Shown here: positions 1,467 to 18,878 of the stretch, in pieces | Position numbering within the stretch: the stretch's first letter is position 1 | How the letters are laid out: each line of letters begins with the position of its first letter | Origin: a virus | Length of the DNA: 20,536 nucleotides | Direction: 5' to 3' (one strand) | Virus record (IMG/VR): IMGVR_UViG_3300032240_001861 | Coordinates: 1 to 20,536 of that record | The notes under the pieces: model-generated | The model's database searches: none | What the model was told of the DNA's origin: nothing | Seen by the model: the letters and a program-made list of their open reading frames with translations, nothing else | Program-made: the position numbers and the translations under genes

Positions 1467-1537
1467 GACGGTTTCCCGTACCTCGCTGGGCGGTTTACCC
1501 CCTTTCCTCGAAGCATAAAATGAGCTATGCTTAAGGC
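1467..1537 (+). promoter_or_regulatory. Terminator-promoter cassette 1 (TATGCT class)
   Basis: Hairpin CCGTACC (1476-1482), loop TCGCT, GGGCGG (1488-1493). The -35 TTTCCT is at 1503-1508, then 17 nt, then the -10 TATGCT at 1526-1531. The ATG of the RNA ligase gene starts 6 nt later at 1538, so the transcript should be leaderless. The element separates the Ntn-hydrolase-like gene from the RNA ligase gene. Confidence 0.8.
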
Positions 1538-2635
1538 ATGGAAATGAACTTACGACACTACCTGATCGATTGGCTGAATACGTACGGGCTTAGGACTCTT
1601 GACGCCTACGACATTCGTATCTCCACCGACGACCGGTTCCCGAACCTCTTCAACCTGAAGTACGGTGTTATCTCGGCAGATAAATTTGATCCGATTGTTT
1701 GCGCTTGCCGTGGTGCTGTCGTAGAACGTGTAGATAATGACGGGGATCATTCACCTTATTTCCGCCTGGTTGCTTACGCGTTTGACCGGTTCTTTAACCT
1801 GGGTGAACCTGGCGCGGCTGAGATCGACTGGTCTTCCGCCAAGGTGCACGAGAAGTATGATGGCTCGCTGATTAAGCTGTTTTGGGGTGGCTCGCAGTGG
1901 ATTGTTTCCACCTCCGGCTCTGTCGGTGGTGCAGGAAGCGTTGGTGAGTCGGACAAATCGTTTGAGGAGCTGTTCTGGGATACCTTCCGGTATATGCGGT
2001 ACAACATTAACGATCTGAATACGGACTACTGTTATGTGTTTGAGCTTTGCTCGCCTGATAACCGTATCGTAGTGAAATACGACGAGCCGACGTTGCGTTT
2101 GCTGGCCGTTCGTGATCGCTCGGACGACTTCAACGAACTGGACCTCAAGTGGTTCAACCGCCACTGGAGTGTTGCGGAAGGTTTCCTTCTGACTGATCCG
2201 GATGCGGTTTTCGCAGCGGCTAACGCTCGCGGCGCTGACCATGAAGGTTTCATCGTGTCGGATGCAAACGGCAACCGTATCAAGGTGAAATCTGACGTTT
2301 ATGTTCAACTGCATCGCGTTCGCGGTAACGGGGAGCCGGATTTCTCCGAGTTGTACCTCAATGGCGACTTGGAAGAGTTTCTTCTGCACTTCCCTGACTT
2401 CCGTGCGAAGTTCCAACCGTTGATGGATCGCCTAGAAGAACTCAACTTCTGGGTGAACGGGTTTGTTGGCCTTTACCGTGAGTACACTCGGAAGGAGTTC
2501 GCTGGTATCGTGCTTGCGAACCACCAGAAAGTTTCCGGTGCCATGTTTGCTATCCGGTCGGGCAAGTGCCGTGACTTCATTCATTACGTTTCGGAATTGT
2601 CCCCGAAGAAATTGGACGAGTTGCTCGGGCTGTGA
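1538..2635 (+). CDS. T4 Rnl1-family RNA ligase
   Basis: ATP-dependent RNA ligase of 365 aa (T4 RnlA is 374) that joins 3'-OH and 5'-phosphate RNA ends. All nucleotidyltransferase motifs are visible: motif I EKYDGS with the adenylated lysine at K106, motif Ia VSTSGSV near residue 130, motif III around YVFELCSPDNRIVV, motif IV DHEGFIV and motif V IKVKSDVY. The C-terminal region after about residue 260 is helical, as in Rnl1, where it binds tRNA. In T4 this enzyme repairs tRNAs cut by the PrrC anticodon nuclease together with Pnkp; the matching kinase and phosphatase genes are at 11105 and 15825. The start is set by cassette 1. It is a single-gene operon, since another cassette follows directly. 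Confidence 0.93.
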   Translation: MEMNLRHYLIDWLNTYGLRTLDAYDIRISTDDRFPNLFNLKYGVISADKFDPIVCACRGAVVERVDNDGDHSPYFRLVAYAFDRFFNLGEPGAAEIDWSSAKVHEKYDGSLIKLFWGGSQWIVSTSGSVGGAGSVGESDKSFEELFWDTFRYMRYNINDLNTDYCYVFELCSPDNRIVVKYDEPTLRLLAVRDRSDDFNELDLKWFNRHWSVAEGFLLTDPDAVFAAANARGADHEGFIVSDANGNRIKVKSDVYVQLHRVRGNGEPDFSELYLNGDLEEFLLHFPDFRAKFQPLMDRLEELNFWVNGFVGLYREYTRKEFAGIVLANHQKVSGAMFAIRSGKCRDFIHYVSELSPKKLDELLGL

Positions 2636-2637
2636 CT

Positions 2638-2710
2638 GGGGCGGTTAACCGTACCTAATAGGGCGGTCTGCCCCCTTTCGAAAACTGCCAAAACGCGCTA
2701 TAGTAATTAC
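2638..2710 (+). promoter_or_regulatory. Terminator-promoter cassette 2 (TATAGT class)
   Basis: A CGGTTAACCG palindrome leads into hairpin CCGTACC-TAATA-GGGCGG (2649-2666). The -35 TTTCGA is at 2676-2681, with a 17-nt spacer and -10 TATAGT at 2699-2704. ATG follows 6 nt later at 2711. Confidence 0.8.
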
Positions 2711-2971
2711 ATGATGAATCTCTCACCCGAAGCCGTCGCCCTGACCGCTGCTTGCCAACTCCACGCTGAACTTCTTTCCGACGATTGTTTCGCCGGTTAC
2801 GATGGAACCAAAGAGCAATTTGACGAACTGTTCGCCGAACTGTTTATTATCGCTCGCGATGAAGTCAGCCTGGAAGTAGAACCTGTTGAGCAGGTTGTAG
2901 ACACCTTCTACGAGTACCAACTGGAAATTTCCTCCGGCGATCGCCCGTTCGACTGGTTCCAGTTTCACTGA
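2711..2971 (+). CDS. Small acidic protein, paralogue of the gene at 13223
   Basis: An 86-aa acidic, helical protein of unknown function. ATG at 2711 is in the cassette position, and a second ATG follows directly (MMNL). Its C-terminal two-thirds resembles the C-terminal part of the 124-aa product at 13223: both show AGYD-T-F-L-E, then VV-T, Q-I-G-P, and DWF near the end. Both are first genes behind a cassette, so gene and promoter may have duplicated together. It lies 8 nt upstream of the phosphoesterase gene and is probably co-transcribed with it. Confidence 0.75.
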   Translation: MMNLSPEAVALTAACQLHAELLSDDCFAGYDGTKEQFDELFAELFIIARDEVSLEVEPVEQVVDTFYEYQLEISSGDRPFDWFQFH

Positions 2972-2979
2972 GTAAAGTA

Positions 2980-3687
2980 ATGTCTTACGCACTAATTGGG
3001 GATCTGCACTCGCAGATTGCGCCTCTGAATCAAGCTCTTGACTACTGTGTTGCGAATAACCTTCGCCCCGTCTTTCTGGGCGACGTGTTTGACTCTCGTT
3101 GCGAACTGAGCAACTCGGTTGAAGTCTACAACACCCTGCGTGAAGCGCAACGTAGCCTGAACGCAGTCATTCTGCGGAGTAATCACCAAGATAAACTTGA
3201 ACGGCTGATTCGTGGCAATAATGTCTTTCGTTCGCCGGAATTGCTCCGCACGATTGAAGATTTTGAAAAATCCAACACGGACCTGTCAGAGGTAGGCGGT
3301 TGGTTAGAGACGCTGCCCTACGGATACTGTTTTCGTGATAGTTCAGACCAGGAGTTCAGATGCGCCCATGCGTACTTTCCCTCTTGGCAAGAAGTTCCGC
3401 AGTATTTCGAAAATCTGTCGATCTTTGACGTGACTCGCAAAGCGAAACAGCTGATGATGTACGGACCGAGTCATAAAGATGGCAACGGTCGCGTATTCTG
3501 GTGGGAGCGACCGACCGAAAGGTCGTGGACCCGCGTGGCCGGACACTATCACGTTGTTCATTACAGCGAGAATAATCTGGTCCTGGACGCCGGTTGCGGT
3601 GGTACCAACCGCTCCTGGTTCTGCGACAAAGACGCCGCTCTGGTGCTCTACGACGTGAGCCGCAAACAGGGAGTGGAATTCTTGTGA
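2980..3687 (+). CDS. Calcineurin-like metallophosphoesterase
   Basis: A 235-aa protein with the metallophosphoesterase signature. GDLHS (residues 7-11) provides the first metal ligands, GDVFDS (34-39) the bridging Asp, RSNHQ (66-70) stands where GNHE/D is usual, and GHYH lies near residue 189. The SNH variant of the GNH motif is unusual, but the Asn and His are kept, so activity is plausible. The substrate could be phosphoprotein, a cyclic nucleotide or a nucleic-acid end; the family does not decide this. It is the second gene of its operon and is followed immediately by cassette 3. Confidence 0.85.
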   Translation: MSYALIGDLHSQIAPLNQALDYCVANNLRPVFLGDVFDSRCELSNSVEVYNTLREAQRSLNAVILRSNHQDKLERLIRGNNVFRSPELLRTIEDFEKSNTDLSEVGGWLETLPYGYCFRDSSDQEFRCAHAYFPSWQEVPQYFENLSIFDVTRKAKQLMMYGPSHKDGNGRVFWWERPTERSWTRVAGHYHVVHYSENNLVLDAGCGGTNRSWFCDKDAALVLYDVSRKQGVEFL

Positions 3688-3758
3688 GGGCGGTTTCCCG
3701 CCCTTTTTGGGCGGTTTGCCCCCTTTCGAAAACCCGGAAAATGAGTTATGCTTATAGC
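3688..3758 (+). promoter_or_regulatory. Terminator-promoter cassette 3 (TATGCT class, perfect stem)
   Basis: The hairpin is a perfect CCGCCC-TTTTT-GGGCGG (3698-3714). The usual TACC/GG irregular stem is replaced by fully paired bases on the 5' side only, which supports a real RNA stem. The -35 TTTCGA is at 3724-3729, then 17 nt, -10 TATGCT at 3747-3752, and ATG at 3759. GTTATGCTTATAGC is close to an inverted repeat around the -10. Confidence 0.8.
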
Positions 3759-3956
3759 ATGGAAATGAAAAGAGTCAACCTTGAGCTGATCGTTGCCTGC
3801 CGACTTGAGGATATGGCCGACCGAATGGAGTTCCACCTACTCAGGGGGAATCACGTTGAAGCGAACCTCCTTCAGAAGGAAGGGTTAGAACTTGCCCGAG
3901 CTTACGACGACGATCAATCTTTTCTTTTTATCAACGACTTGAAAACATCTCGATGA
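3759..3956 (+). CDS. Small hypothetical protein
   Basis: A 65-aa, mostly helical, charged protein beginning MEMKRVN. The start is fixed by cassette 3; genes 1538 and 13223 also begin MEM after a TATGCT cassette. No family is recognised. Its stop overlaps the start of the secreted-peptide gene (ATGA at 3953-3956), suggesting translational coupling. Confidence 0.65.
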   Translation: MEMKRVNLELIVACRLEDMADRMEFHLLRGNHVEANLLQKEGLELARAYDDDQSFLFINDLKTSR

Positions 3957-4165
3957 AATCCACTCTTTTCTGTTTGTTCTCGCTGGCCCTGGCTCAAGTG
4001 GCCCTGGCTCAAAACGTTCCTGTTCTGAAGTACGGCCAGTGTCCGGTCAGAACGGTAGCCTCCGGGAATGCCTGCGTCCCTGTTCAAGGAACGCAAGTGT
4101 TCTGGAACGGCGGAGCCACCTGTCCGGTGGGCTGGACCCGCTCCGGCCAGTACTGCGAGCGGTAG
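3953..4165 (+). CDS. Small secreted cysteine-containing protein
   Basis: A 70-aa protein with a clear Sec signal peptide: MKSTLF, a hydrophobic core, then an ALAQ-type signal peptidase I site near residue 19-20. The mature part of about 50 residues has four Cys (CPV, ACVP, TCPVGW, QYCE), enough for two disulfides, and many Gly/Pro/Val, suggesting a compact periplasmic or secreted domain. The signal peptide holds a 15-nt-period direct duplication encoding LALAQ-VALAQ (3985-3997 and 4000-4012). Function is unknown; an envelope-acting phage factor is possible. Confidence 0.7.
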   Translation: MKSTLFCLFSLALAQVALAQNVPVLKYGQCPVRTVASGNACVPVQGTQVFWNGGATCPVGWTRSGQYCER

Positions 4166-4233
4166 GGTTTCCCGTACCTGGCAGGGCGGTTTACCCGCTT
4201 TACTTCCTCGCCAAAATCCGCTATAATAGTTAC
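4164..4233 (+). promoter_or_regulatory. Terminator-promoter cassette 4 (consensus TATAAT, leadered)
   Basis: Hairpin CCGTACC-TGGCA-GGGCGG, -35 TTTACT at 4199-4204, 17-nt spacer, and perfect -10 TATAAT at 4222-4227. The predicted start point, at the same spacing as the other copies, falls at about 4234. There is no ATG there: the DUF932 start is 34 nt further on. This is the only copy that makes an untranslated leader, and it has the best -10. Confidence 0.8.
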
Positions 4234-4267
4234 AGTTAAAAAACTTTCACCAAACCAACCAAGAAAA

Positions 4268-5101
4268 ATGCCTGCTTTCGCTGTTACCAACAATCTCGAC
4301 TGGACCGTTTCTCATCGTCCTCTCTTCTTCGTGGGCGACCAAGGTCAGCCCGTCAAGTGGGACGAGCGAGTTGCCGTTGTCCGCGATGATAACGGTGCCT
4401 GCCTCGGTTCTGTCAGCCCGAATTACGAGACTGTTCAGAACTCCGACCTGCTGAAACTCATCACCCCGATGGTTGACGAGGGCCTGCTCACGATCGAAAA
4501 CATGGGATACCTGAACAACGGTGCCCGTGTGTTCGCCCAAGCCAAAGTGAACCAAGAGTTCAATGTGATTGGCGAGAACTACAGCTCCTATATCACTCTG
4601 CTCAACGGCCACGTCGGCAACGCTTCCGTCGCGATTGGCCCTTCGGCGACCCGTGTCATCTGCGGAAATACGTTCGCAATGGCTTACGCTGACCTGAGTG
4701 AGAAGTACCGTCACCAAGTCGGTGTGAACGAGCGAGTTCTTTCCTCGACGGCTGTCCTTGACTACGTCAACGGTGCCATGCAGAAATACTCTCAATACGT
4801 TGACAAGCTGGCTACCACTCCTTGCAACTCGGTGCAGTTTCGCAACGCTCTGGAGGAAATCTATCAGAAAGGTGTCGGGACGATGCGTGACTCCTTCGTA
4901 AGCCAGCTTAACCAACTGTTTTACAGCGGCAAGGGTAACGAAGGTCGTACCTACTACGATGCCTTCAACGCTGTGACCGAATACGCCTCCAACTACTCTC
5001 GCAAGACTGTGGCTGGGCGGTTCAACTACGCTCAGTTTGGCCAGGGCGCCCGCATCAACCAACGTGCGATGCGCGTCCTGACCGAACTGGCTGCGGTCTG
5101 A
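4268..5101 (+). CDS. DUF932 family protein
   Basis: A 277-aa protein of the DUF932 (phage/plasmid-like, TIGR03299) type. Recognisable stretches are the N-terminal WTVSHRPLFF, YETVQNSDLL, and the conserved core RVICGNTFAMA followed by a helical C-terminal half. The family is common in phages and plasmids; its biochemical role is not settled, so I give none. The start is ATG at 4268, preceded by an A-rich leader with only a weak AAG-type Shine-Dalgarno match. It is driven by the strongest-looking promoter in the window and is followed by a hairpin, so high expression is likely. Confidence 0.82.
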   Translation: MPAFAVTNNLDWTVSHRPLFFVGDQGQPVKWDERVAVVRDDNGACLGSVSPNYETVQNSDLLKLITPMVDEGLLTIENMGYLNNGARVFAQAKVNQEFNVIGENYSSYITLLNGHVGNASVAIGPSATRVICGNTFAMAYADLSEKYRHQVGVNERVLSSTAVLDYVNGAMQKYSQYVDKLATTPCNSVQFRNALEEIYQKGVGTMRDSFVSQLNQLFYSGKGNEGRTYYDAFNAVTEYASNYSRKTVAGRFNYAQFGQGARINQRAMRVLTELAAV

Positions 5102-5127
5102 CCCTTCGGGGTCCAGCCCCGTTTCTC
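5101..5127 (+). terminator. Hairpin after the DUF932 gene
   Basis: Two overlapping hairpins directly follow the stop: ACCC-TTCG-GGGT (a UUCG tetraloop, 5101-5112) and CGGGG-TCCAG-CCCCG (5107-5121) followed by TTTCTC. They are mutually exclusive. The second with its T-rich tail could be a weak terminator that reduces expression of the gene at 5145. Confidence 0.5.
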
Positions 5128-5144
5128 TACTCACCTTGAAAACT

Positions 5145-7194: not shown

Positions 7195-7687
7195 ATGGCA
7201 ATTGAAAATCGTGACGACGTTGTGGACGTTCTGGTGTCCCGCGTTTGTGAGAACGCACCACTCAGAGAATTGATTCGGGTCAACTGAATAGGCCCCTTTA
7301 GGGAGTAATCCCTACAGCAAACAGGGTTAATTGCTGGGACCCCCTAACGTAGAGGCGAGGGAAATCAGCAGCCAAGCCAACCCACAAGTTGGAAGGTTCA
7401 ACGACTAGATCCCGAGAGGAAACTCAGTAACGGATCCACGAATGCCCTGCCCCAGTGATGGGTGAAGATATAGTCTGACCTTGCTGGAAACAGTAAGAAG
7501 TGGGAATAAAGAGTTCCACGATAACATTTGTTATTCTGAAGCCGTTCGCGCTGCTATTTCTCAGATGGATGATGACGGTCTGGTTAACGCCATTCTGCAG
7601 GCAGGCTACCCTGACATCCTTGAGGCCTTCGGCCTGGTCCCGTCAGGCGCTCCCACAGAGCCCGCTGCCGAGCCCGCCACCGTGTGA
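7195..7687 (+). CDS. Small protein gene interrupted by a group I intron
   Basis: Exon 1 (ATG at 7195 to about 7280) encodes MAIENRDDVVDVLV through IRV and would hit a stop at 7287-7289 if unspliced. Exon 2 (from about 7504) continues KEFHDNICYSEAV and ends PAAEPATV at 7687. Joining 7280 to 7504 keeps frame (86 + 184 = 270 nt) and gives an 89-aa protein. Junctions 3 or 6 nt earlier on the 3' side would also be in frame. Exon 2 is helical (ISQMDDDGLVNAILQAGY), then a Pro/Ala-rich tail. No family is recognised. The product depends on splicing. Confidence 0.7.
7281..7503 (+). ncRNA. Group I self-splicing intron, no ORF
   Basis: The conserved core is readable: GTTCAACGACTAGA (7396-7409, R/P7 5' strand) and GAAGATATAGTC (7464-7475, S/P7 3' strand), with GACTA (7403-7407) pairing TAGTC (7471-7475). 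Other helices: GTAA-loop hairpin TAGGGA/TCCCTA (7299-7314), CAGCAA/TTGCTG (7315-7336), P6-type CCAAC/GTTGG (7377-7392), GAG/CTC P8-like, and a possible P3 GGGA (7336-7339) with TCCC (7410-7413). P1 is exon GGGU with GCCC (7292-7295), giving the required U-G pair at the 5' splice site (U7280). The intron encodes no homing endonuclease. The exact 3' end (G at 7497, 7500 or 7503) is uncertain. Confidence 0.88.
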
Positions 7688-7737: not shown

Positions 7738-7813
7738 CGGGTAGGGTTTCCCTTACCCTTTTAGGGCGGTTTCCCGGCTTTACGGGGACCGCCTTTTGAG
7801 CTATGCTTAAAGC
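7738..7813 (+). promoter_or_regulatory. Terminator-promoter cassette 5 (TATGCT class, two strong terminators)
   Basis: The most elaborate copy. First terminator: GGGTA-GGG/CCC-TACCC with one bulge and a TTT loop (7739-7758), then TTTT. Second: GGCGGT/ACCGCC (7765-7770, 7788-7793) with inner CCCG/CGGG, then TTTT (7794-7797). The -35 TTTACG (7779-7784) lies inside the loop of the second terminator, 17 nt before -10 TATGCT (7802-7807). ATG is at 7814, 6 nt later. Confidence 0.85.
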
Positions 7814-7969
7814 ATGAATAACCCCGATTGGACCACCCCTGCGGAATTCCGCAAGACCATGCTTGAAGAGGCTCTTGAGCATTACATTTATTGTCTGAAG
7901 AAAGACAACTGCAACCAAGCTGCGATCGACGCATTCACCCAGCTCCTGCAAGAGGTTGAAAATGAGTAA
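7814..7969 (+). CDS. Small hypothetical protein, 51 aa
   Basis: Begins MNNPDWTTPAEFRKTM, with start set by cassette 5 (leaderless). Helical and acidic. No family recognised. It overlaps the next gene by 8 nt (ATGAGTAA), suggesting coupled translation. Confidence 0.6.
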   Translation: MNNPDWTTPAEFRKTMLEEALEHYIYCLKKDNCNQAAIDAFTQLLQEVENE

Positions 7970-8093: not shown

Positions 8094-8290
8094 CTGACGA
8101 ACAAATCCTTGAACTTGCTAAATCGTCCGGATTAGATAGTTTCACGGGTGAAAAAGATGACGGGGCGAACTCCGAGTATTGGGAAGGATGGGAAGATCAA
8201 CTCTTGAAGTTTGGCAAAACAATCTACATGGAGGGTTTCACAGTTGGTTTTGATGTAGGAGCCACCTATTCCCTGGATGTGGCCGGTTAA
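8090..8290 (+). CDS. Small hypothetical protein, 66 aa
   Basis: Starts at ATG 8090 overlapping the previous stop. Acidic, with EYWEGWEDQLLKF and a Gly/Phe-rich C-terminal segment. Its TAA stop (8288-8290) lies inside the CGGTTAACCG palindrome of cassette 6, so the last residues (VAG) are partly dictated by the repeat. Confidence 0.6.
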   Translation: MTDEQILELAKSSGLDSFTGEKDDGANSEYWEGWEDQLLKFGKTIYMEGFTVGFDVGATYSLDVAG

Positions 8291-8352
8291 CCGTACCTTT
8301 CGGGGCGGTTTCCCCCCTTTCCAAAACAGCCAAACCACGCTATAGTTATATC
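8283..8352 (+). promoter_or_regulatory. Terminator-promoter cassette 6 (TATAGT class)
   Basis: CGGTTAACCG palindrome, hairpin CCGTACC-TTTCG-GGGCGG, alternative hairpin GGGG-CGGTTT-CCCC, -35 TTTCCA (8318-8323), 17 nt, -10 TATAGT (8341-8346), ATG at 8353. Confidence 0.8.
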
Positions 8353-8925
8353 ATGAACAAAATCCTCTGCCACCTCGGCGATCCCCGTCAGTCCAAGCCC
8401 GAAACTCTGCAGGAGTACGGTAAACTCCGTGAGCGCATGATTCAGCGTCCTTGGGAGGCGCTGCACGAGCATGAATTTATTCGCCTTGTGACTGAGAAAG
8501 GTTGCCCTTTTTACGGCGGTCTTCTGAACGGTCGCGATCTGATGGAACTCCAGTTTGAAAAGCTCTGCTGGCGCACTCAAACGCTTGTCGGTCTCGACTT
8601 TGACGTTTGTGAAGTTTCCGGTAACGATATGGTCCAGTGGTTTGGTTACTTCGGCATGAAGCCTTGGCTCGGTTACTTCACTTTTTCCAATGACGGTCGC
8701 TTCCGCAACCAGTCCTATCGCCTGCTGTGGCGCGTTGAAACCGACCTGAATGTTTCTTACGAGGAATGTGTGAAGGCGCTGAAAGCAATGCGTGCACAAT
8801 CTGGAAACCTTGCTGATAAGCATGCTTGCAATCCGACTCGGATGTGGCAAGGAACCAACTGCGGGTTCTTCCACTACGCTCACGACGCAAAGCGTCTCAA
8901 CCTTAAGGAGCTTTCCTCTGTATGA
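8353..8925 (+). CDS. Primase-like protein (possible archaeo-eukaryotic primase superfamily)
   Basis: A 190-aa protein. LVGLDFDV (D82 and D84) looks like the hhDxD metal motif of AEP primases. A strand YRLLWRVE (122-129) follows, where the family has its second motif, and D155 with NPTRMWQGTNCG (160-171) resembles the late Asp and the NP-R-x-x-G pattern of phage and plasmid replication primases. The usual S-x-H is not evident (SYR instead), so this is an inference from motif order. It is shorter than bifunctional primase-helicases and would be the catalytic domain alone. It leads a run of six genes. Confidence 0.45.
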   Translation: MNKILCHLGDPRQSKPETLQEYGKLRERMIQRPWEALHEHEFIRLVTEKGCPFYGGLLNGRDLMELQFEKLCWRTQTLVGLDFDVCEVSGNDMVQWFGYFGMKPWLGYFTFSNDGRFRNQSYRLLWRVETDLNVSYEECVKALKAMRAQSGNLADKHACNPTRMWQGTNCGFFHYAHDAKRLNLKELSSV

Positions 8926-9742: not shown

Positions 9743-9908
9743 AGTCACCCTGGAGATGGCGATTGAACAGGGTGTGAGGCGGGGATACGCACGAGCCCAC
9801 AAACACGTGGAAAATCCGAACGAAGGGTCAATCATAGCGCACATCGAGGAATGCGTTATGAGCGAAATTTACGAGTATTTCACGTTTGACAGTGAGGAGG
9901 GCGGTTAA
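9726..9908 (+). CDS. Small hypothetical protein, 60 aa
   Basis: Begins MKPKARVTLEMAIEQG. The basic N-terminal half and acidic end (FTFDSEEGG) resemble a small regulator, but no domain is recognised. The TAA stop sits within the CGGTTAACCG palindrome of cassette 7, giving the repeat-derived GG ending. Confidence 0.6.
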   Translation: MKPKARVTLEMAIEQGVRRGYARAHKHVENPNEGSIIAHIEECVMSEIYEYFTFDSEEGG

Positions 9909-9971
9909 CCGTACCTGAGAGGGGCGGTTTGCCCCCTTTCGTCTGCAGCGAAAAGGCGCTATAGTTAAAGT
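9899..9971 (+). promoter_or_regulatory. Terminator-promoter cassette 7 (TATAGT class)
   Basis: CGGTTAACCG palindrome, hairpin CCGTACC...GGGGCGG, alternative GGGGC-GGTTT-GCCCC, -35 TTTCGT (9937-9942), 17 nt, -10 TATAGT (9960-9965), ATG at 9972. Confidence 0.8.
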
Positions 9972-10139
9972 ATGAAATTCAGACTCCCCTCGCGTCGGCT
10001 CAGTTCCCGGCTCACCTCCCTGTTCTTCGGAATGTTTTTGGGCGCACTGGTTACGGGTCAAACTGTCCTCATGGTGACCGGTTTCGTCGGAATGCTTGTT
10101 TTTTACGTCATCTTCTGCAACAACACCAATGAAAACTGA
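9972..10139 (+). CDS. Small membrane protein, 55 aa, two transmembrane helices
   Basis: A basic N-terminus (MKFRLPSRRLSSRL) is followed by two hydrophobic segments (about 15-32 and 34-49) and a short polar tail. This is typical of a small inner-membrane phage protein oriented by positive-inside charge. Overlaps the next gene by 11 nt. Confidence 0.65.
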   Translation: MKFRLPSRRLSSRLTSLFFGMFLGALVTGQTVLMVTGFVGMLVFYVIFCNNTNEN

Positions 10140-10665: not shown

Positions 10666-10855
10666 CCTCCTTCTCGCAACTCCCAACCAGAACATCTTTC
10701 CCCAGGAACCTTGGAATGACGAGGACCTTCAAGATGCCGCACGAATAATTCAAGACTTCGTGAATCTTGACCAAGGGGTAATTGACGATTCCAATCCCTG
10801 GAAAGAGTGGCTGGACCGTTGGAAGTTTTATGAAGCTTCTCAACAAGGCGGATAA
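10631..10855 (+). CDS. Small hypothetical protein, 74 aa
   Basis: MTTEILKTKLRNLLLA is followed by an acidic helical region rich in Trp, Asp and Ile. It overlaps the nucleotidyltransferase gene by 35 nt and its TAA stop lies in the CGGATAACCG segment of cassette 8 (QQGG ending). No family recognised. Confidence 0.6.
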   Translation: MTTEILKTKLRNLLLATPNQNIFPQEPWNDEDLQDAARIIQDFVNLDQGVIDDSNPWKEWLDRWKFYEASQQGG

Positions 10856-10917
10856 CCGTACCCACGAGGGCGGTTGCCCCCCTTTACCTTTCGGCCAAAA
10901 GGCGCTATAGTAGTTAC
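10847..10917 (+). promoter_or_regulatory. Terminator-promoter cassette 8 (TATAGT class)
   Basis: CGGATAACCG, hairpin CCGTACC-CACGA-GGGCGG, -35 TTTACC (10883-10888), 17 nt, -10 TATAGT (10906-10911), ATG at 10918. Drives the operon with kinase, phosphatase and exonuclease. Confidence 0.8.
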
Positions 10918-11103
10918 ATGACGAATGAAACGACTGTGACCTACTTCAAGAAAGAGAAAATCCTGTTCCGAGTTCGCATGGCCCTGGAAGCCCGGGAAAT
11001 GGCCTTGCAACCGGGAAACGAAGTAACCCATGGTTACGCCTACGCTGCCGGATATATGGCCAGCTGCTTGGAAAACATCGCGCTGATGCTGGAGGATGCT
11101 TGA
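10918..11103 (+). CDS. Small hypothetical protein, 61 aa
   Basis: Leaderless start from cassette 8. Helical, with Ala/Met-rich stretches (GYAYAAGYMASCLENIALML). Its last codons hold the GGAGG that serves the kinase gene. No family recognised. Confidence 0.6.
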   Translation: MTNETTVTYFKKEKILFRVRMALEAREMALQPGNEVTHGYAYAAGYMASCLENIALMLEDA

Positions 11104-11104
11104 T

Positions 11105-11569
11105 ATGAACGCCATGACTGCTTACGTGATGGTTGGTTGCCAAGGTTCCGGAAAGACTTTCCAAGCGCAGAAAATCGCAGAAGTTGAAAATGCTGTTATT
11201 ATCTCCGGTGACGATATCCGTGCTGAACTGTACGGTGACGCCTCAATCCAGGGAAACTGGGTGGAGATTCATGACCGCATTGCAGAGCAAGTTGCTAACG
11301 CTGCTGCTTTGGGTCGTAATGTTGTACTGGACGGTACTCACTATCGCAAATCGTACCGCTCTGAGGCAATCGCGCTTCTGAAGTCTTTCGGTTACGGTAA
11401 TATCGAGGCCGTGGTGGTTGACAAACCTCTCGCTGTTTGCCTCTCTCAAAACTTCTCCCGTTCCCGAAAAGTACCTGAGTGGGTGGTTACCCAGACCCAC
11501 GAACGATTCAAGAGTTCGACGCGTAACATCTTGGACGAAGAATTTGATCGCGTAACGTTCGTTTATTAA
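11105..11569 (+). CDS. Polynucleotide 5'-kinase-like P-loop kinase (T4 Pnkp kinase domain)
   Basis: A 154-aa protein with Walker A GCQGSGKT (11-18), a DD-I-R catalytic segment (D36, D37, R39), DGTHYRK (76-82, where T4 Pnkp has DTNL) and a lid RSRKVPE (119-125) like the R-x-x-x-VP of T4 Pnkp. It probably phosphorylates 5'-OH RNA or DNA ends with ATP. It corresponds to the kinase half only; a separate gene at 15825 supplies the phosphatase half that is fused in T4. The start at 11105 is chosen because GGAGG ends 9 nt upstream; ATG 11096 sits too close. A general AAA_33/zeta-like kinase is the alternative. Confidence 0.75.
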   Translation: MNAMTAYVMVGCQGSGKTFQAQKIAEVENAVIISGDDIRAELYGDASIQGNWVEIHDRIAEQVANAAALGRNVVLDGTHYRKSYRSEAIALLKSFGYGNIEAVVVDKPLAVCLSQNFSRSRKVPEWVVTQTHERFKSSTRNILDEEFDRVTFVY

Positions 11570-11572
11570 CTA

Positions 11573-12259
11573 ATGTTCAACTACAATGACAAAATTAACC
11601 CCGGTGACGTGATTGCCGTTGGAGATATCCACGGCATGGCACAGCTGTTCTTCCGGTTTCTTGACTGGGTGAAGGACACCGGTGCCCGTGTTATTCTACT
11701 AGGAGATCTGATTGACCGAGGGGGTCAAGACGAGGCGGTTCTGCTTCGCACTCGCCAACTTCTTGAGAATCCCGACCTGCTTGGCCTGGAAACTTTCACA
11801 GTGCTCAAGGGTAACCACGAGCAAATGTTCATCAATGCTGTAGACGGATGGGGATTGAGCGATTGGGTTCACAACGGCGGAGATTACGAGAACTTTGAGT
11901 TGCTCGCAGAGCACTCCGGGTGGCTTCGTCAGTTGCCTTACTATGTGACGGTTGGTGATACAATGTTTACGCATGCGGGCACTCCTCCGGGCAGAAACCC
12001 CCAGGATTGGATGGCAACTGAATACCTGCGGGAGACCTTTCTTTGGCAACGTGAGCCGTTTCTGAGTACCGGCCCCCAGTTTGAACAATGGACTCCGCAT
12101 CTGAAGAAGATTGTGTTTGGCCACACCCCGAAAAATTCGCTTCCTTACCGTATCCCCAACGGTATTTGTATAGACACTGCCGCTTATCATACTCGGGTAC
12201 TTACGGCGTATAATAACACTCAGGACACCATTATGCAGTTTGACTTGATCGGCGAATGA
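11573..12259 (+). CDS. PPP-family serine/threonine phosphatase-like
   Basis: A 228-aa protein close in size to phage lambda phosphatase. All metal and phosphate motifs of the PPP family are present: GDIHG (17-21), GDLIDRG (44-50), GNHE (80-83), HAG (134-136) and FGHT near residue 183. It should hydrolyse phosphomonoesters on protein or on diadenosine tetraphosphate (ApaH-like). It lies 3 nt after the kinase gene and overlaps the exonuclease gene by 4 nt, so the three are one operon. Confidence 0.9.
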   Translation: MFNYNDKINPGDVIAVGDIHGMAQLFFRFLDWVKDTGARVILLGDLIDRGGQDEAVLLRTRQLLENPDLLGLETFTVLKGNHEQMFINAVDGWGLSDWVHNGGDYENFELLAEHSGWLRQLPYYVTVGDTMFTHAGTPPGRNPQDWMATEYLRETFLWQREPFLSTGPQFEQWTPHLKKIVFGHTPKNSLPYRIPNGICIDTAAYHTRVLTAYNNTQDTIMQFDLIGE

Positions 12260-13146
12260 AACGACTTCTTTTGGTGGATACATCTGCCCTTTTTCACCGG
12301 TCGCGTTCCGCTTTGATGCGAACATGCGGTGAGCTAACAACTTCAGCTGGTATCCCCGTGACTGGGACAATGGGTTTTCTGAACGCATTGTTTGCAATCA
12401 TGGGGAAGTATGAGTATGATTGCGTCATTCCTTGCGCGGAAGGTGGAAATAACTGGCGCAAGAGAGAGTCCGCCGATTACAAGGCGAACCGGGAGAGCGA
12501 AAACATTGCCCATTACGCAGATCAAGGGCTCTTGCTTGATGAAGTGCTTCCCACGCTTGGCATGACGGTCGTAAGGGCACCGGGGTACGAGGCCGACGAC
12601 GTAATCGCCCATATTTCGCGTCATTCAGTCGCGTACTCAGAAGTTCACATCCTAACATGTGACAAAGACCTTCTGCAGCTAGTTTCAAACAAAGTCAAGG
12701 TCTTGCTCTTTAACTCCGCGAAGAAGATGGAGCTAGTAGACATTGATGGTGTGTTGAAACATTTTGGTGTGTTTCCCGTCGAGGTGAAGTACTTTAAGGC
12801 ACTTGCTGGAGACAGCAGCGATAACGTCGCTGGTATCAAAGGGATCGGGCCGAAAACAGCAGTGAAAATAATTGAAGATAGTCGCCCGAAGGGACTTTGT
12901 AGCGAAGGGGACACTTTTCTAAGTGGCGCTGACAGAATTGCCCTTCACCCAAAGGTTAAGAATGACGCGGGGACTTTTCTGGCTAATTTGCGTCTCGTGA
13001 CGCTAGAGAACAACTTGCCGGATTTGACTTGGTTCTCTTCAAGTCCGCCGATACCTTCTCACGTTGAGGACCTCTTTGAGGGTTTGGAGTTTAAGCAGAT
13101 TTTGAAGAGGAAAGATAAAATTCTTCAAACCCTTGGCTGTTCGTGA
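12256..13146 (+). CDS. 5'-3' exonuclease / flap endonuclease
   Basis: A 296-aa protein like the N-terminal nuclease of DNA polymerase I and T4 RNase H. Visible motifs are LLVDTSALFHR with D8, GYEADDVIA, LTCDKDLLQLV, and GDSSDNVAGIKGIGPKTA, the last containing the metal-binding Asp residues and the helix-hairpin-helix. It removes RNA primers and flaps at replication forks. The ATG overlaps the phosphatase stop (ATGA). Codon use is somewhat richer in GTA/ATA than its neighbours, but the motifs are intact. Confidence 0.92.
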   Translation: MKRLLLVDTSALFHRSRSALMRTCGELTTSAGIPVTGTMGFLNALFAIMGKYEYDCVIPCAEGGNNWRKRESADYKANRESENIAHYADQGLLLDEVLPTLGMTVVRAPGYEADDVIAHISRHSVAYSEVHILTCDKDLLQLVSNKVKVLLFNSAKKMELVDIDGVLKHFGVFPVEVKYFKALAGDSSDNVAGIKGIGPKTAVKIIEDSRPKGLCSEGDTFLSGADRIALHPKVKNDAGTFLANLRLVTLENNLPDLTWFSSSPPIPSHVEDLFEGLEFKQILKRKDKILQTLGCS

Positions 13147-13148
13147 GT

Positions 13149-13222
13149 CGGGGCGGTTTCCCGTACCTGGCAGGGCGGTTTACCCCCTTTCGCCGGGAGG
13201 CAAAATGAGCTATGCTTATAGC
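13149..13222 (+). promoter_or_regulatory. Terminator-promoter cassette 9 (TATGCT class)
   Basis: Hairpin CCGTACC-TGGCA-GGGCGG, -35 TTTCGC (13188-13193), 17 nt, -10 TATGCT (13211-13216) within the inverted repeat GCTAT-GCTT-ATAGC, ATG at 13223. Confidence 0.8.
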
Positions 13223-13597
13223 ATGGAAATGAATCAAGTGACCACCCCCGACTTCCGCGCCCTATGCGCTGAGCTGGCTGATGCGCTGGCCTCCTTCCAA
13301 CGATACGAAGGACCGTTTGAAGAAACGGCTGTCACCGAAATGACTGACCTGATCCTGGCTGCCGCTCTTGAGGTTCACAATGCCATCAAAGATGATGAGG
13401 GTTGGGCTGGTTATGATCCCACTGTGGCTGGATTCACCCGGCTGCTCTCCGAAATTGAGCCCCTGGTGGAGCGCCTCTACGTGCCTAAGATGCTCGAACT
13501 CGACACTGTCGTAGCCACCTGGTTTGCGGTTCAGAATGCTATTGCCGAAGGCGAACTTCCGGTTGATTGGTTTTCTACCTACGCTGATTGCGCCTGA
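13223..13597 (+). CDS. Hypothetical acidic helical protein, paralogue of 2711
   Basis: A 124-aa protein beginning MEMNQVTTPDF. Its C-terminal 60 residues align by eye with the 86-aa product at 2711 (AGYD-T, F-L-E, VV-T, Q-I-G-P, DWF). The extra N-terminal part is helical with FEETAVTEMTDLIL. Both paralogues head a cassette operon. Function unknown. Confidence 0.75.
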   Translation: MEMNQVTTPDFRALCAELADALASFQRYEGPFEETAVTEMTDLILAAALEVHNAIKDDEGWAGYDPTVAGFTRLLSEIEPLVERLYVPKMLELDTVVATWFAVQNAIAEGELPVDWFSTYADCA

Positions 13598-14347: not shown

Positions 14348-14588
14348 CACCCTCTACGACCGCATCTGGGAAACTGTAGGCAAGAAGGTGGGATACGGCA
14401 TCGCTTGCGACGAACTCACTGATGCCCTCTTTGACATCTTCAACGAGGAAAAGAAAAAGGGTCGTCCCTATTCCGGCCCTGTTAGGGACGAAGCTGAGCA
14501 CCAGCGCCGACTCCGAATCCAGGAGCAAAGCAAAGAAGTTGCAAAGAAAATGAAAGATCAAGCTGAGGACGGTTTCCCGTACCCGTGA
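14340..14588 (+). CDS. Hypothetical protein, 82 aa, running into cassette 10
   Basis: ATG at 14340 overlaps the previous stop; an in-frame ATG at 14331 is possible. Charged and helical (NEEKKKGRPYSG, QSKEVAKKMKDQ). The last residues EDGFPYP are encoded by the cassette hairpin itself, with the stop in its loop, so translation would cross the terminator stem. No family recognised. Confidence 0.6.
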   Translation: MTDTLYDRIWETVGKKVGYGIACDELTDALFDIFNEEKKKGRPYSGPVRDEAEHQRRLRIQEQSKEVAKKMKDQAEDGFPYP

Positions 14589-14638
14589 GGGCGGTTTACC
14601 CCCTTTCGCCTGCGGCGAAAATGAGCTATGCTTAATTC
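14571..14638 (+). promoter_or_regulatory. Terminator-promoter cassette 10 (TATGCT class)
   Basis: Hairpin CCGTACC-CGTGA-GGGCGG with the upstream TGA stop in its loop, -35 TTTCGC (14604-14609), 17 nt, -10 TATGCT (14627-14632), ATG at 14639. GCCTGCGGCGAAAA in the spacer can form a small GC stem. Confidence 0.8.
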
Positions 14639-14956
14639 ATGGAAAACAAAACCAACCACGGCCTGCGCACTACCGGGACACACACAGGGAACTTCGGACG
14701 CGCCAAAGTTCAAGGAAAACGCGAATCCCTTGACCTTTCTAAACAAATTCTTAAGAAAGACAATTTACGGATTCCTCGGCCCGACGAGGCGTTTACCAAA
14801 CTCGTTGAAGCGTATAATACCACTACCGATCCTCGCCTCAAAGCAGGTCTTTGGGAAATTCTTAAACGGAGAAAAGCAACTCTTAACCCTGTGAAGGTGA
14901 AACCAAATGAACGTCCAAGGGCTGAGTTCTGGGATATGGTCCGTCAGGTACGATAA
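14639..14956 (+). CDS. Hypothetical basic protein, 105 aa
   Basis: Leaderless start from cassette 10 (MENKTNHGLRTTG). Lys/Arg-rich throughout, with KRRKATLNPVKVKPNERPRAEF near the end split by helices. A nucleic-acid-binding role is plausible but unproven. It overlaps the next gene by 50 nt. Confidence 0.6.
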   Translation: MENKTNHGLRTTGTHTGNFGRAKVQGKRESLDLSKQILKKDNLRIPRPDEAFTKLVEAYNTTTDPRLKAGLWEILKRRKATLNPVKVKPNERPRAEFWDMVRQVR

Positions 14957-15581: not shown

Positions 15582-15828
15582 ATCAGAAATTGTAGTTTTA
15601 GCCGATCAACCTGACGAGGAGATTCGTCGTTCCGTAAATCTTACGAACGAACAGTGGTCAATCCTGGCGATGTGCGTAGACTCATACGCGGATACTTTCA
15701 GGACGAAACAGTCGCAGATTGTGACGACCTATGTAACTCGAAACCAGCTTGAAAACGCAGTCCAAGCGGCAGAAAAGATGAACACATTGCTTCAACAGCT
15801 TGACACTCTGCAGGCGAACCTCCTGTGA
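15571..15828 (+). CDS. Hypothetical helical protein, 85 aa
   Basis: MTSESEIVVLADQPDEEIRR followed by helices, including a C-terminal leucine-rich heptad region (LENAVQAAEKMNTLLQQLDT). Probably forms a coiled coil. Ends at the GTG start of the phosphatase gene (GTGA overlap). Confidence 0.6.
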   Translation: MTSESEIVVLADQPDEEIRRSVNLTNEQWSILAMCVDSYADTFRTKQSQIVTTYVTRNQLENAVQAAEKMNTLLQQLDTLQANLL

Positions 15829-16214
15829 ATAAACCAATCGTGTTTGACATAGACGGGACTCTCACCGCTGAGCCTTACAACGAGGACAATCTTCTTTCTC
15901 TTAGAGAGAACCCAGCGATGGTGCTTGTTGCGATTGCGTTGCAAGCAGAACGTCCCCTTTTAATTTCAACTGCGAGACCTGAACGATTCAGGGGGCAAAC
16001 CGAGCAGTGGTTATCCGGGCATGGCCTCAAACCCTCTCGAACTTTCATGCGGAGAGACGAAGACGAGGGTATCCCTGACCAAGAAGTTAAATTCGAACAT
16101 TTGCAGGAAATTCGAAGTATTTACGGAGATCCGCAGGTTTGGGTAGACGACCACGACTCTAACGTCAGAATGTTAAGAATGAACGGAGTTCCCGTAATTC
16201 ACGTCAACAGGTGA
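15825..16214 (+). CDS. PNK-type 3'-phosphatase (HAD superfamily)
   Basis: A 129-aa protein starting at GTG 15825. HAD motif I FDIDGTLT (D8, D10), motif II STARPE (48-53), FMRRDEDE (74-81) as in the T4 Pnkp phosphatase domain (FMRK-D), K89, and motif IV VDDHDSN (107-113) followed by MLRMNGVPVIHV. This order and wording match the C-terminal domain of T4 polynucleotide kinase-phosphatase, which removes 3'-phosphate or 2',3'-cyclic phosphate from RNA ends. Together with the kinase at 11105 it would supply both Pnkp activities as separate proteins. It is encoded late in a seven-gene cassette operon. Confidence 0.85.
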   Translation: MNKPIVFDIDGTLTAEPYNEDNLLSLRENPAMVLVAIALQAERPLLISTARPERFRGQTEQWLSGHGLKPSRTFMRRDEDEGIPDQEVKFEHLQEIRSIYGDPQVWVDDHDSNVRMLRMNGVPVIHVNR

Positions 16215-16218
16215 AATT

Positions 16219-16383
16219 ATGGAACAAGACGAGTGGGACCAGCTAGTAGCTTTGCGGTCGGAGATGAATAATCATCTTATGGCGCTTGATCATAAAACCC
16301 AGGAAAAATATACCGAGCTTCTGGTGAAGTCCCTGAGGGGTAAGGGGGACCAACCGGTGAGGACGGTTTCCCCTCCCCGTTAG
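16219..16383 (+). CDS. Small hypothetical protein, 54 aa, ending in cassette 11
   Basis: MEQDEWDQLVALRSEMN, helical; then a tail VRTVSPPR encoded by the cassette's hairpin region. The TAG stop is in the hairpin loop. No family recognised. Confidence 0.5.
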   Translation: MEQDEWDQLVALRSEMNNHLMALDHKTQEKYTELLVKSLRGKGDQPVRTVSPPR

Positions 16384-16433
16384 GGCGGTTTGCCCTCCTT
16401 TCGCCGAGGGCGGAAATGAGCTATGCTTAAGTC
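16363..16433 (+). promoter_or_regulatory. Terminator-promoter cassette 11 (TATGCT class)
   Basis: Divergent hairpin CCCC-GTTA-GGG(CGG), alternative GGGC-GGTTT-GCCC, -35 TTTCGC (16399-16404), 17 nt, -10 TATGCT (16422-16427), ATG at 16434. It opens the longest operon in the window (ten genes). Confidence 0.78.
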
Positions 16434-16640
16434 ATGGAAAACGACACATTCACCTTCACCCTCAGCCTTCACGATGCTCGCAACATTGTGCAGGCTCTTC
16501 GCAATGAAGCGTTTCAACTTACTCAGGAAAGTGACCGAGCTTGCGAGAAAGGTGCTCTTGAGTACGGAGCTCTTTTGTGGAACGAAACTGCGACTTTCAA
16601 CGACCTTGCCGATTACATTGACCTCGAGCTACCTGAATGA
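16434..16640 (+). CDS. Hypothetical acidic helical protein, 68 aa
   Basis: MENDTFTFTLSLHDARNIVQ, then helices with QESDRACEKGALEYG. Start set by cassette 11. ATGA overlap with the next gene. No family recognised. Confidence 0.6.
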   Translation: MENDTFTFTLSLHDARNIVQALRNEAFQLTQESDRACEKGALEYGALLWNETATFNDLADYIDLELPE

Positions 16641-17109: not shown

Positions 17110-17129
17110 ACACCCGAACAACCAGAACA

Positions 17130-17378
17130 ATGCTGATTAACTTTCAAGGCTATAACCCTACAACTCAGACTGTTGAGTTCAACTCCGACGACCTTCAGGA
17201 GTTTCGCAAAATTGTAAACGATCAGTTCATGACGTACGTCCGGTACGGAACCTTTGACCCCTACTTCCCTTCGGCCATGGATAAAACAATTCTCGACTTC
17301 TGTGGGCGATTTGGGGTGGATGGTTTAAATAAGACGGCGAGGATTGCTTTCTTCGAGGCACTTACTTCCGCAGTCTGA
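17130..17378 (+). CDS. Hypothetical protein, 82 aa
   Basis: MLINFQGYNPTTQTVEFNSD opens a beta-then-alpha protein with DQFMTYVRYGTFDPYFPSAM. The start is taken at ATG 17130 since upstream codons belong to the previous gene. No family recognised. Confidence 0.6.
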   Translation: MLINFQGYNPTTQTVEFNSDDLQEFRKIVNDQFMTYVRYGTFDPYFPSAMDKTILDFCGRFGVDGLNKTARIAFFEALTSAV

Positions 17379-17406
17379 GGTAAAATTGATCGTTCGCGAA
17401 AGCAAA

Positions 17407-17724
17407 ATGCTCTCTACACAAACTCGTTTACGGTTAGAAGATATTGCTGTGAGGATTGCCGATGGTTTGAATGTCAGTCTTGAAGAAATGACATGGGCGA
17501 CTAAATGGGCCGAGCACAATCGTTCCGCAGCCGAGATTCTTCGCCGAGGACGAAGACGTGCGATCAACGGAACTCCGGAGAAAGGTAGTCTTGACGAGTT
17601 GATCGAGGGAATGGATTTAGGAGATCCAGACCCATCAAACCACTTAATTGGTCCCCAAGATCCGATAGACCTGGCAAACTGGTTTCGTCAAGATAAAAGC
17701 GAAGATTGGAGGCAACGTGACTAA
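17407..17724 (+). CDS. Hypothetical protein, 105 aa
   Basis: ATG at 17407 begins MLSTQTRLRLEDIAVRIADG; a basic segment (ILRRGRRRAING) around 44-55 may contact nucleic acid, and the C-terminal part is acidic (DELIEGMDLGDPDPSN). Ends overlapping the GTG of the next gene. No family recognised. Confidence 0.55.
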   Translation: MLSTQTRLRLEDIAVRIADGLNVSLEEMTWATKWAEHNRSAAEILRRGRRRAINGTPEKGSLDELIEGMDLGDPDPSNHLIGPQDPIDLANWFRQDKSEDWRQRD

Positions 17725-17944
17725 CTTTAATGTCGAAACGACTCGAACTAATTCGAAAACAATCTGGACATCTAGTGAACAAGTCAATGAATTTTACAGG
17801 TGGTTCGACGAACCCGAAGGGCATGGCTTCAGGGAAGAAAGATTCTGGGGAGCCTGTGTCCGAGGAGACGAGAAAGAACTCTACGAATGGTTGCGAACAT
17901 CCTTCCGAATGGGTTGGGAAGCCGGACAACGCCAAAGTGATTGA
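17717..17944 (+). CDS. Hypothetical protein, 75 aa
   Basis: GTG start at 17717 (MTNFNVETTRTN). Contains EFYRWFDEPEGHGFREERFWG and WLRTSFRMGWEAGQ, rich in aromatic and charged residues. Overlaps neighbours on both sides by 8 nt. No family recognised. Confidence 0.55.
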   Translation: MTNFNVETTRTNSKTIWTSSEQVNEFYRWFDEPEGHGFREERFWGACVRGDEKELYEWLRTSFRMGWEAGQRQSD

Positions 17945-18134
17945 CGATTGTTTCTATGTGAAAAATCAACGTTGGGGAACTTATGTGTCCGTTCACAAGA
18001 CCGGAGAACTATTGGTAACTTCCTCAACGGAAGAACAATGCATCTCCTCTACGAGGTGGTATCTAAAAGCTAAACAAGAGGGTTTCCCAGCGGGCGGAAG
18101 CGGTTATACTGGTACAGTTGGCGGAAAGTTGTGA
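17937..18134 (+). CDS. Hypothetical beta-rich protein, 65 aa
   Basis: The frame is open further upstream but overlaps the preceding gene fully, so GTG at 17937 is the likely start (VIDDCFYVKNQRWGTYVSVH). Strands CFYVKNQRWGTYVSV and GELLVTSSTEEQ, then a short helix and a Gly-rich end. No family recognised. Confidence 0.5.
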   Translation: MIDDCFYVKNQRWGTYVSVHKTGELLVTSSTEEQCISSTRWYLKAKQEGFPAGGSGYTGTVGGKL

Positions 18135-18271
18135 TGCCTGCACTGGATCCAACAACTCCCTGGTACGAGTTTCTGTCGTATTGTGAGTGTTGCTGGTCGC
18201 TTGGAGTCGAACCTTCCGTCCATAAATTCGCACGGTACCAAGCCTTCTACCGTTCCTACTTCAGTCGTTAA
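18134..18271 (+). CDS. Very small hypothetical protein, 45 aa
   Basis: MPALDPTTPWYEFLSYCECC, aromatic-rich, with three Cys close together (C17, C19, C20) and FARYQAFYRSYFSR at the end. One-base overlaps at both ends (TGATG and TAATG) argue for a real coupled gene. Confidence 0.5.
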   Translation: MPALDPTTPWYEFLSYCECCWSLGVEPSVHKFARYQAFYRSYFSR

Positions 18272-18561
18272 TGGAAAACCAATCTCAACAAGACATAGCG
18301 CAGGTCTGCGATGAAATCAAGGGTATGCTCCTTGAAAAGAATCGAAAGTATGGAGATTCTGCCCTGAAACCGGTGAGAATCTTCAGCAAAGCAAGCACGC
18401 TTGAGCAGTTAAAAGTTCGCCTCGATGACAAACTCAGCAGGTTGCGAAATGCTCAAGACGATGAGGACGAAGATGTCATCTCTGACCTTGTTGGTTATTT
18501 GATCCTGTTCAAAGTGGCGCAAATTCAGAAACGCCGCTCGGACGATTTCGTAATCACCTGA
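18271..18561 (+). CDS. DUF1599-like (MazG-related all-alpha) protein
   Basis: A 96-aa protein. EKNRKYGDSALKPVRIFSKA, then LKVRLDDKLSRL and EDVISDLVGYLILFKV match the DUF1599 / nucleotide-modification-associated domain: the K-x-x-YGDSA loop and the D-L-x-GY helix. These all-alpha proteins resemble MazG/dUTPase-like pyrophosphatases and are often found near phage nucleotide-metabolism genes. I infer handling of a nucleotide or modified base; the substrate is unknown. Confidence 0.75.
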   Translation: MENQSQQDIAQVCDEIKGMLLEKNRKYGDSALKPVRIFSKASTLEQLKVRLDDKLSRLRNAQDDEDEDVISDLVGYLILFKVAQIQKRRSDDFVIT

Positions 18562-18579
18562 CATGACACCCTGGTAATC

Positions 18580-18807
18580 ATGAAAAAACCCGAACACTGG
18601 ATTGAAGAAGATCGTGGGGAAATTGCCTCCGCGATTACTGACGGAATCGTATCCGAAATGACTCTGGAACGAATGCGTCAAATAGTCTGGGATTTACACT
18701 ACGAGGAAATTGTCTGGAAACCGTGGGTTGAGATTTGGGACTTGGCGGAAGATTATGCCCCCGACCTTCTAGCCAGGTTCAACGAACCAGAATCCAAACT
18801 GGGGTAG
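18580..18807 (+). CDS. Hypothetical acidic protein, 75 aa
   Basis: MKKPEHWIEEDRGEIASAI, helical and Trp-rich (IVWKPWVEIWDLAEDYAPD). Last gene of the cassette 11 operon; the TAG stop touches cassette 12. No family recognised. Confidence 0.6.
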   Translation: MKKPEHWIEEDRGEIASAITDGIVSEMTLERMRQIVWDLHYEEIVWKPWVEIWDLAEDYAPDLLARFNEPESKLG

Positions 18808-18878
18808 GGCGGTTTCCCGTACCTCGCTGGGCGGTTTACCCCCTTTACTTTCGAGACGAAATGAGGCATAATAAAGGC
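18803..18878 (+). promoter_or_regulatory. Terminator-promoter cassette 12 (CATAAT variant)
   Basis: Hairpin CCGTACC-TCGCT-GGGCGG identical to copy 1, -35 TTTACT (18844-18849), 17 nt, -10 CATAAT (18867-18872), then the usual 6 nt to ATG at 18879. ATGAGGCATAATAA replaces ATGAGCTATGCTTA. Confidence 0.78.

Follow-up and report, generated by a model that had tools for sequence, protein, structure and literature searches.

A repeated intergenic hairpin-promoter element of about 75 nucleotides with a mostly leaderless predicted start in uncultured cyanophages

The window and its twelve intergenic units

The DNA analyzed here, called the window throughout, is the complete IMG/VR record IMGVR_UViG_3300032240_001861, 20,536 bases long, which represents a fragment of a virus genome. 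Gene content indicates that the window and its relatives belong to cyanophages, because the relatives encode psbA and the nearest isolate, judged by the DUF932 protein (43% identity), is Synechococcus phage S-CBWM1. The record of this isolate (NC_048106, Aokuangvirus) lists psbA and two sigma factors, and the relative G005 codes for PsbA, RNR, a sigma70-region-2 protein, and an unusual DNA polymerase. A near-identical element of 75 letters lies between dozens of gene groups in these uncultured viruses. The window holds twelve copies, here called cassettes, and one hairpin that stands alone:

1463-1540, plus strand: cassette 1; stop TGA 1463-1465, hairpin 1, hairpin 2 from 1488, -10 TATGCT 1526-1531, predicted leaderless ATG 1538
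1538-2635: RNA ligase gene, downstream of cassette 1
2637-2713, plus strand: cassette 2; hairpin 2 from 2661, -10 TATAGT 2699-2704, predicted leaderless ATG 2711
3685-3761, plus strand: cassette 3; hairpin 1 (the 3688 copy) a perfect stem with T5, GGGCGG-TTTC-CCGCCC-TTTTT, hairpin 2 from 3709, -10 3747-3752, predicted leaderless ATG 3759
4161-4235, plus strand: cassette 4, predicted to be leadered; hairpin 2 from 4184, -35 TTTACT 4199-4204, -10 TATAAT 4222-4227, expected start A at 4234 (CAGT), ATG of the DUF932 gene 34 nt further on, at 4268
7740-7816, plus strand: cassette 5; hairpin 1 a perfect 8-bp stem, GGGTAGGG-TTTC-CCTTACCC, hairpin 2 from 7764, -10 7802-7807, predicted leaderless ATG 7814
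8279-8355, plus strand: cassette 6; loop of hairpin 1 containing the upstream gene's TAA (8288-8290), hairpin 2 from 8303, -10 8341-8346, predicted leaderless ATG 8353
9897-9974, plus strand: cassette 7; loop of hairpin 1 containing the upstream TAA (9906-9908), hairpin 2 from 9922, -10 9960-9965, predicted leaderless ATG 9972
10847-10920, plus strand: cassette 8; loop of hairpin 1 containing the upstream TAA (10853-10855), hairpin 2 from 10868, -10 10906-10911, predicted leaderless ATG 10918
13150-13225, plus strand: cassette 9; hairpin 2 from 13173, -10 13211-13216, predicted leaderless ATG 13223
14565-14641, plus strand: cassette 10; hairpin 2 from 14589, spacer between -35 and -10 a perfect inverted repeat (TTTCGCC-TGC-GGCGAAA), -10 14627-14632, predicted leaderless ATG 14639
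16359-16436, plus strand: cassette 11; hairpin 2 from 16383, -10 16422-16427, predicted leaderless ATG 16434
18805-18881, plus strand: cassette 12; upstream TAG 18805-18807, hairpin 2 from 18829, -10 CATAAT 18867-18872, predicted leaderless ATG 18879
19713-19737, plus strand: stand-alone putative terminator after a SprT-like gene, made of the cassette hairpin sequence with T5 (GAGGGCGG-GAAA-CCGCTCTC-TTTTT), with no cassette promoter behind it

The window also encodes a polynucleotide-kinase-like AAA_33 kinase, a metallophosphoesterase, and a separate PNKP-type phosphatase (11096-12259 and 15825-16214), which with the RNA ligase at 1538 have the appearance of a split set for RNA repair. A group I intron at 7271-7497 (Rfam, 80.9 bits) splits a small gene running from about 7195 to 7687. 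At the Rfam gathering threshold, this intron and tRNAs were the only matches in the window, and the cassette corresponded to no known family.

The first-pass annotation had reported twelve copies of a unit of about 70 bp, all on the plus strand and always between operons. Its coordinates are right within a few bases, a family profile recovers 12/12 (E-values of 5e-9 to 5e-20), 12 copies lie on the plus strand and 0 on the minus strand, and all 12 sit between two genes, on the coding strand. The repeated unit is real, with a length of 73-76 nt. Within the proposed core, CCGTACC-N5-GGGCGG or a variant, CCGTACC is exact in 9/12 copies (the variants being CCGCCC at 3688, CCTTACC at 7738, and CCCCTCC at 16363), and the gap, mostly 5 nt, ranges from 4 to 6 nt. 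The full order of the unit is stop codon, hairpin 1 (common form GGGCGGTTAACCGTACC), about 5 nt, hairpin 2 (GGGCGGTTTRCCCCC), TTT, 20 nt, TATRNT, 6 nt, and ATG; the fixed 6 nt from the -10 to the ATG, the stop codons within the hairpins, and the overlap of the T-tract with the -35 had been missed. A search for CCCTTT-N20-TATRNT-N6-ATG matched the window at 8 sites, and 100 dinucleotide shuffles yielded 0 matches; a chance origin of the repeats is excluded. A simple consensus scanner found no excess of promoters or terminators in the window, since it scores by the E. coli consensus, to which the -35 and the U-tract are a poor match; the repeats are visible by alignment only.

Distribution, placement, and inheritance of the unit

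The motif-model scan suggested in the first pass found more copies in the relatives besides the 12/12 in the window. The motif is not missing from related viruses: the same build is present in about 38 viral contigs, the largest 277 kb, where a pattern scan marked 62 stretches, and in the isolate S-CBWM1. The cassette core occurs in 37/37 related records, nearly always confined to one strand, and the pattern read backwards gave 0 matches among these 37. A profile (HMM) trained on 84 cassette copies of the family detected about 20 copies each in G005 and G010, two relatives of ~113 kb, and 44 diverged copies in the 190-kb relative G032; against the reversed sequences of all 15 records it returned a single match (E = 0.35). 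An exact-match search of 84,980 prokaryote genomes found no occurrence of the pattern, and derivation of the element from the host was rejected on these zero matches. BLAST of a single cassette against phage records gave nothing meaningful, and the S-CBWM1 versions were reachable solely by profile and pattern searches.

In G032, 43/44 copies fall within the first 98.5 kb, together with RNA ligase, nucleotide and cofactor genes, and many genes of unknown function, while the other half of the genome carries terminase, portal, head/capsid, sheath, tail fibres, DNA polymerase, primase, and RNR. Across 13 records, most of the gene order between cassettes is maintained; where it differs, the change is often the gain or movement of a single cassette with a single gene, as seen for family 194 (between families 5 and 98/1), families 192 and 57 (between 56 and 43), and family 47 (between 88 and 89). 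The earlier proposal that any block of small genes could be added in this way is supported only in part: cassette-plus-gene units were gained or moved at several junctions, but insertions are just slightly more frequent at junctions with a cassette, as 15/34 of these against 51/164 others gave no significant hot-spot effect (Fisher p = 0.16).

Promoter halves are more alike when copies have the same downstream gene (0.747 vs 0.589) and hairpin halves when they have the same upstream gene (0.831 vs 0.765); thus, the unit behaves as a joint between two inherited halves. Likeness within a genome hardly exceeds that across genomes (0.777 vs 0.765), which indicates that the copies are not homogenised and leaves concerted evolution unsupported as the cause of their conservation. 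The repeat and its geometry, orientation, distribution, and conservation are direct observations.

In S-CBWM1, about ten fused putative terminator-promoters, unannotated in NC_048106, have perfect stems, usually GGGCGG-NAAA-CCGCCC, that run straight into TTTAC, which is also the promoter -35; about 18 nt separate TTTAC from a -10 of TAAGCT or TATAAT. Most of these units directly precede annotated genes, and one on the minus strand stands before a minus-strand kinase gene. Like the window cassettes, they have a GC hairpin, a T-tract coinciding with the -35, a -10 about equally distant, and the orientation of the gene. Unlike them, they have perfect stems, mostly a single hairpin, and about ten copies, and they are leadered, several with GGAG/GAGG-like ribosome sites, whereas the window cassettes are mostly leaderless by prediction. 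One S-CBWM1 cassette, at 101565, lies immediately before a phage sigma factor gene. At 22937-23272 of NC_048106 (L093), the annotated protein HOU61_gp166 overlaps the fused terminator-promoter at 23035 and, therefore, may be misannotated.

Predicted termination, predicted start, and competing explanations

Hairpins 1 and 2 fold with mean energies of -6.9 and -7.0 kcal/mol, compared with -2.6 and -2.5 for shuffled sequences. In the named hairpin pairs, 84.1% of the cells are paired and the covariation score is 0.130, which 0/500 shuffles attained, compared with 0.041-0.060 for slid partners; an arm-swap test of covariation was not significant for either hairpin (z = -0.95 and -0.31, respectively). 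The commonest forms leave one base unpaired (GGGcGG/CCCCC; CCGTaCC). Upstream stop codons fall inside or touch the hairpin part in about 110/145 copies, for example, as a TAA within GGTTAACC or as a TGA or TAG fused to GGGCGG. As for intrinsic termination, the stems are well above shuffles and the tract is mostly CUUU: in most copies it is just CTTT, which is weak for an intrinsic terminator, and few copies are called by a generic scanner. There are also perfect forms with TTTAC or T5, and the best case for termination would be the comparative one, namely, the perfect S-CBWM1 stems running into TTTAC. Hairpin 2 is near-invariant in sequence, beyond the needs of pairing, which suggests that it may have an added sequence-specific role.

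In the promoter part, the T-tract lies 20 nt from the -10 in 149/152 strong copies, and in 127/152 strong copies with a recognisable -10 the ATG follows after exactly 6 nt, although these 152 are not all independent, some coming from records of close relatives (G010/G015 and G005/G012). The ATG is in place in 97/125 distinct cassettes and in 11/12 window copies, where each opens a reading frame. Plotted as a histogram, the distance from -10 to ATG has its maximum at 6 nt in the window and in three relatives; in S-CBWM1 the histogram is flat. RNA normally begins about 7 nt past a -10, and the transcript would therefore begin on the A of this ATG. In 90/90 leaderless copies a pyrimidine precedes the ATG, and in 37/38 leadered ones the predicted start position holds a purine, in line with the YR context that a transcription initiator would require. 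With the A at the expected RNA start, and always after a pyrimidine, the mRNAs should be leaderless. Further support comes from codons 2-12 past the ATG, where 146 changes affect the third position, 84 the first, and 37 the second; since most changes are at third positions, these codons are coding. The possibility that the ATG is an initiator motif of DNA only was rejected on this coding-type change and on the frequent use of CAGT instead in leadered copies. Three independent signs, i.e., the initiator bases, the start of a structured RNA described below, and the coding evolution past the ATG, agree on the same start. It is strongly inferred from this arrangement that most cassettes give mRNAs without a leader or a Shine-Dalgarno site. 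GTG takes the place of ATG in eight cases (GGGTGGTTG...), which appear to belong to the starts of small RNAs and tRNA operons, not proteins.

The heads of tRNA clusters in G005, G010, and G016 carry two to four tandem cassettes about 150-300 nt apart (G005 L073, about 12600-13070, minus strand; G010, about 25550-26300; G016, about 16230-16500 in flipped record coordinates). The first of them would drive an RNA of ~80 nt with a three-way-junction fold (-54 and -47.5 kcal/mol, 96 nt), which in all three relatives starts at the predicted position. Its sequence differs among the phages and its fold is kept; comparison with Rfam gave no convincing match. The -35 is poor beyond TTT in many copies. 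The spacer between -35 and -10 contains an inverted repeat in many copies, not all, of varying sequence and maintained pairing, which unlike the two hairpins is significant in the arm-swap test (z = -5.6). In the distant relatives G003, G013, G024, and G032 (e.g., L011, L026, and L044), this repeat is near-perfect and again of varying sequence (CTTTCTCGAAGAGAAAG, GTTTCTGCCTCGCAGAAAC), with CGG next to it, ahead of the -10.

Taken together, the cassette is probably a compact transcription insulator, that is, a terminator, fused to a promoter with a mostly leaderless start. The polymerase leaving the upstream operon would meet a stop codon inside or touching hairpin 1, and then two GC hairpins and a short T-tract, at which it would mostly be released. 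The same T-tract would double as the -35 region of a sigma70-type promoter (TTTNNN-17-TATRNT), so that initiation 7 nt past the -10 would fall, in most copies, on the A of the next gene's ATG, and ribosomes would translate the downstream operon on a leaderless mRNA with no Shine-Dalgarno site, a step that the geometry strongly favors. In the other copies, transcription would begin at this position on CAGT or GGGTGG, and the product would be a leadered mRNA, the RNA of a tRNA operon, or a small structured RNA. The copies lie mainly in the accessory-gene part, and this placement would make small operons transcription units of their own, in the manner of the PeSLs of T4-type phages (see below). 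Termination, start site, and the use of a host or phage sigma are all inferred from sequence. The reading of the first pass, a terminator-promoter cassette between operons, remains the best one, and the relatives have the same build; this kind of element was already known, and the leaderless start had escaped notice.

The rigid distances to the -10, combined with a poor -35, would also be expected of an activated promoter. Each copy has two GGGCGGTT direct repeats, spaced about 22 bp apart and at a fixed distance from the -10, to which an activator of phage or host, or a phage sigma, could bind as DNA sites; this would make the unit no more than an activated promoter, with the hairpins a by-product. 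The near-invariance of hairpin 2 despite its imperfect stem agrees with such sites, as does the similar likeness within and across genomes (0.777 and 0.765), which implies that the sequence is kept by selection and not by copying, and candidate factors exist in the sigma70-region-2 protein of a relative and the two sigma factors of S-CBWM1. A binding site would not explain why hairpin 1 exchanges one perfect stem for another (GGTACGG/CCGTACC, GGTAGGG/CCCTACC, and GGGCGG/CCGCCC), why perfect G-C stems precede TTTAC in S-CBWM1, or why the cassette hairpin with T5 stands at 19713 with no promoter, and stop codons at or inside the unit are what a terminator predicts. This explanation is considered unlikely, although it is the strongest of the rivals.

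In phage T7, RNase III sites adjoin promoters, and the hairpins might likewise be sites of RNA processing or 3'-end protection, at which read-through transcripts are cut, and not terminators. Imperfect, bulged stems with a weak U-tract, in tandem right after stop codons, are compatible with such a role. However, stems of 6-8 bp are short for RNase III, T-rich tracts follow the hairpins in S-CBWM1 and at 19713, and a promoter beside each hairpin makes processing needless for the downstream operon; this role is improbable. Even less credible is a mobile or repetitive element of the REP/MITE type that spreads itself and has promoter activity by chance. The many copies and the gain and movement of cassette-plus-gene units would fit it, but the single orientation relative to genes, the strictly intergenic position, the fixed start-codon distance, the co-inheritance of promoter halves with the downstream gene, and the absence of the pattern from 84,980 prokaryote genomes do not; orientation, geometry, and co-inheritance largely led to its rejection.

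A terminator fused to a promoter is thus the preferred reading, and a bolder extension of it can be offered as a tentative speculation that we regard as doubtful: this cyanophage lineage may have made leaderless translation a genome-wide programme, repeating the cassette 20 times or more, with imperfect hairpins read by a phage factor and accessory operons forming an expression class apart from the leadered ones.

If the preferred reading is true, large phages evolved composite promoter-terminator cassettes on more than one occasion, in this case as a form that runs seamlessly from stop to start without an untranslated leader. With the cassette as a marker, operons and start codons could be called in cyanophages rich in unknown genes, and cyanobacterial engineering would gain a very short natural insulator-promoter. 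Furthermore, the role of leaderless translation in phage infection becomes directly testable, and a cultured phage-host pair, S-CBWM1 with Synechococcus CBW1002, exists for the leadered form.

Comparison with known systems

The PeSLs of T4-type phages were reportedly described by Arbiol et al. in 2010 and by Comeau et al. in 2014. In a cyanophage paper that cites them, these promoter-early stem-loops are composite promoter-terminator cassettes, which were weighed as a route of gene gain in S-PM2 and dismissed (PMC4503421). The cassettes resemble PeSLs as small units of promoter plus stem-loop, many per genome, in variable regions and linked to the shuffling of gene blocks, a link only partly supported here. 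They are repeated and intergenic, combine a sigma70-like promoter with a stem-loop, and, as the G032 distribution indicates, are concentrated in the accessory region. They differ in several respects: their sequence is, as far as is known, unrelated; they have two tandem hairpins; the T-tract and the -35 share bases; the start codon is fused to the promoter (leaderless) and the stop codon to the hairpin; and the host is a cyanobacterium. The carriers are not T4-like: DNApol_Exo and family-A domains occur in the polymerase of one relative, and S-CBWM1 (Aokuangvirus) gives the best protein match. The cassette is accordingly regarded as PeSL-like in its working and not filed with the T4 family.

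The literature searched, a set without the two PeSL papers, contained no report of this cassette. Promoter-terminator elements are known from other phages, and, to our knowledge, the leaderless build of 75 nt is undescribed. Leaderless mRNAs are known as well, including those of CvkR and Cas12k in Anabaena, 51 in Synechocystis, and lambda cI, and in cyanobacteria they are few (PMC9938897). Like these, the cassettes place the transcription start, here a predicted one, on the A of the AUG; the known cases are single genes, whereas the cassette would build a leaderless start into many operons of one genome.
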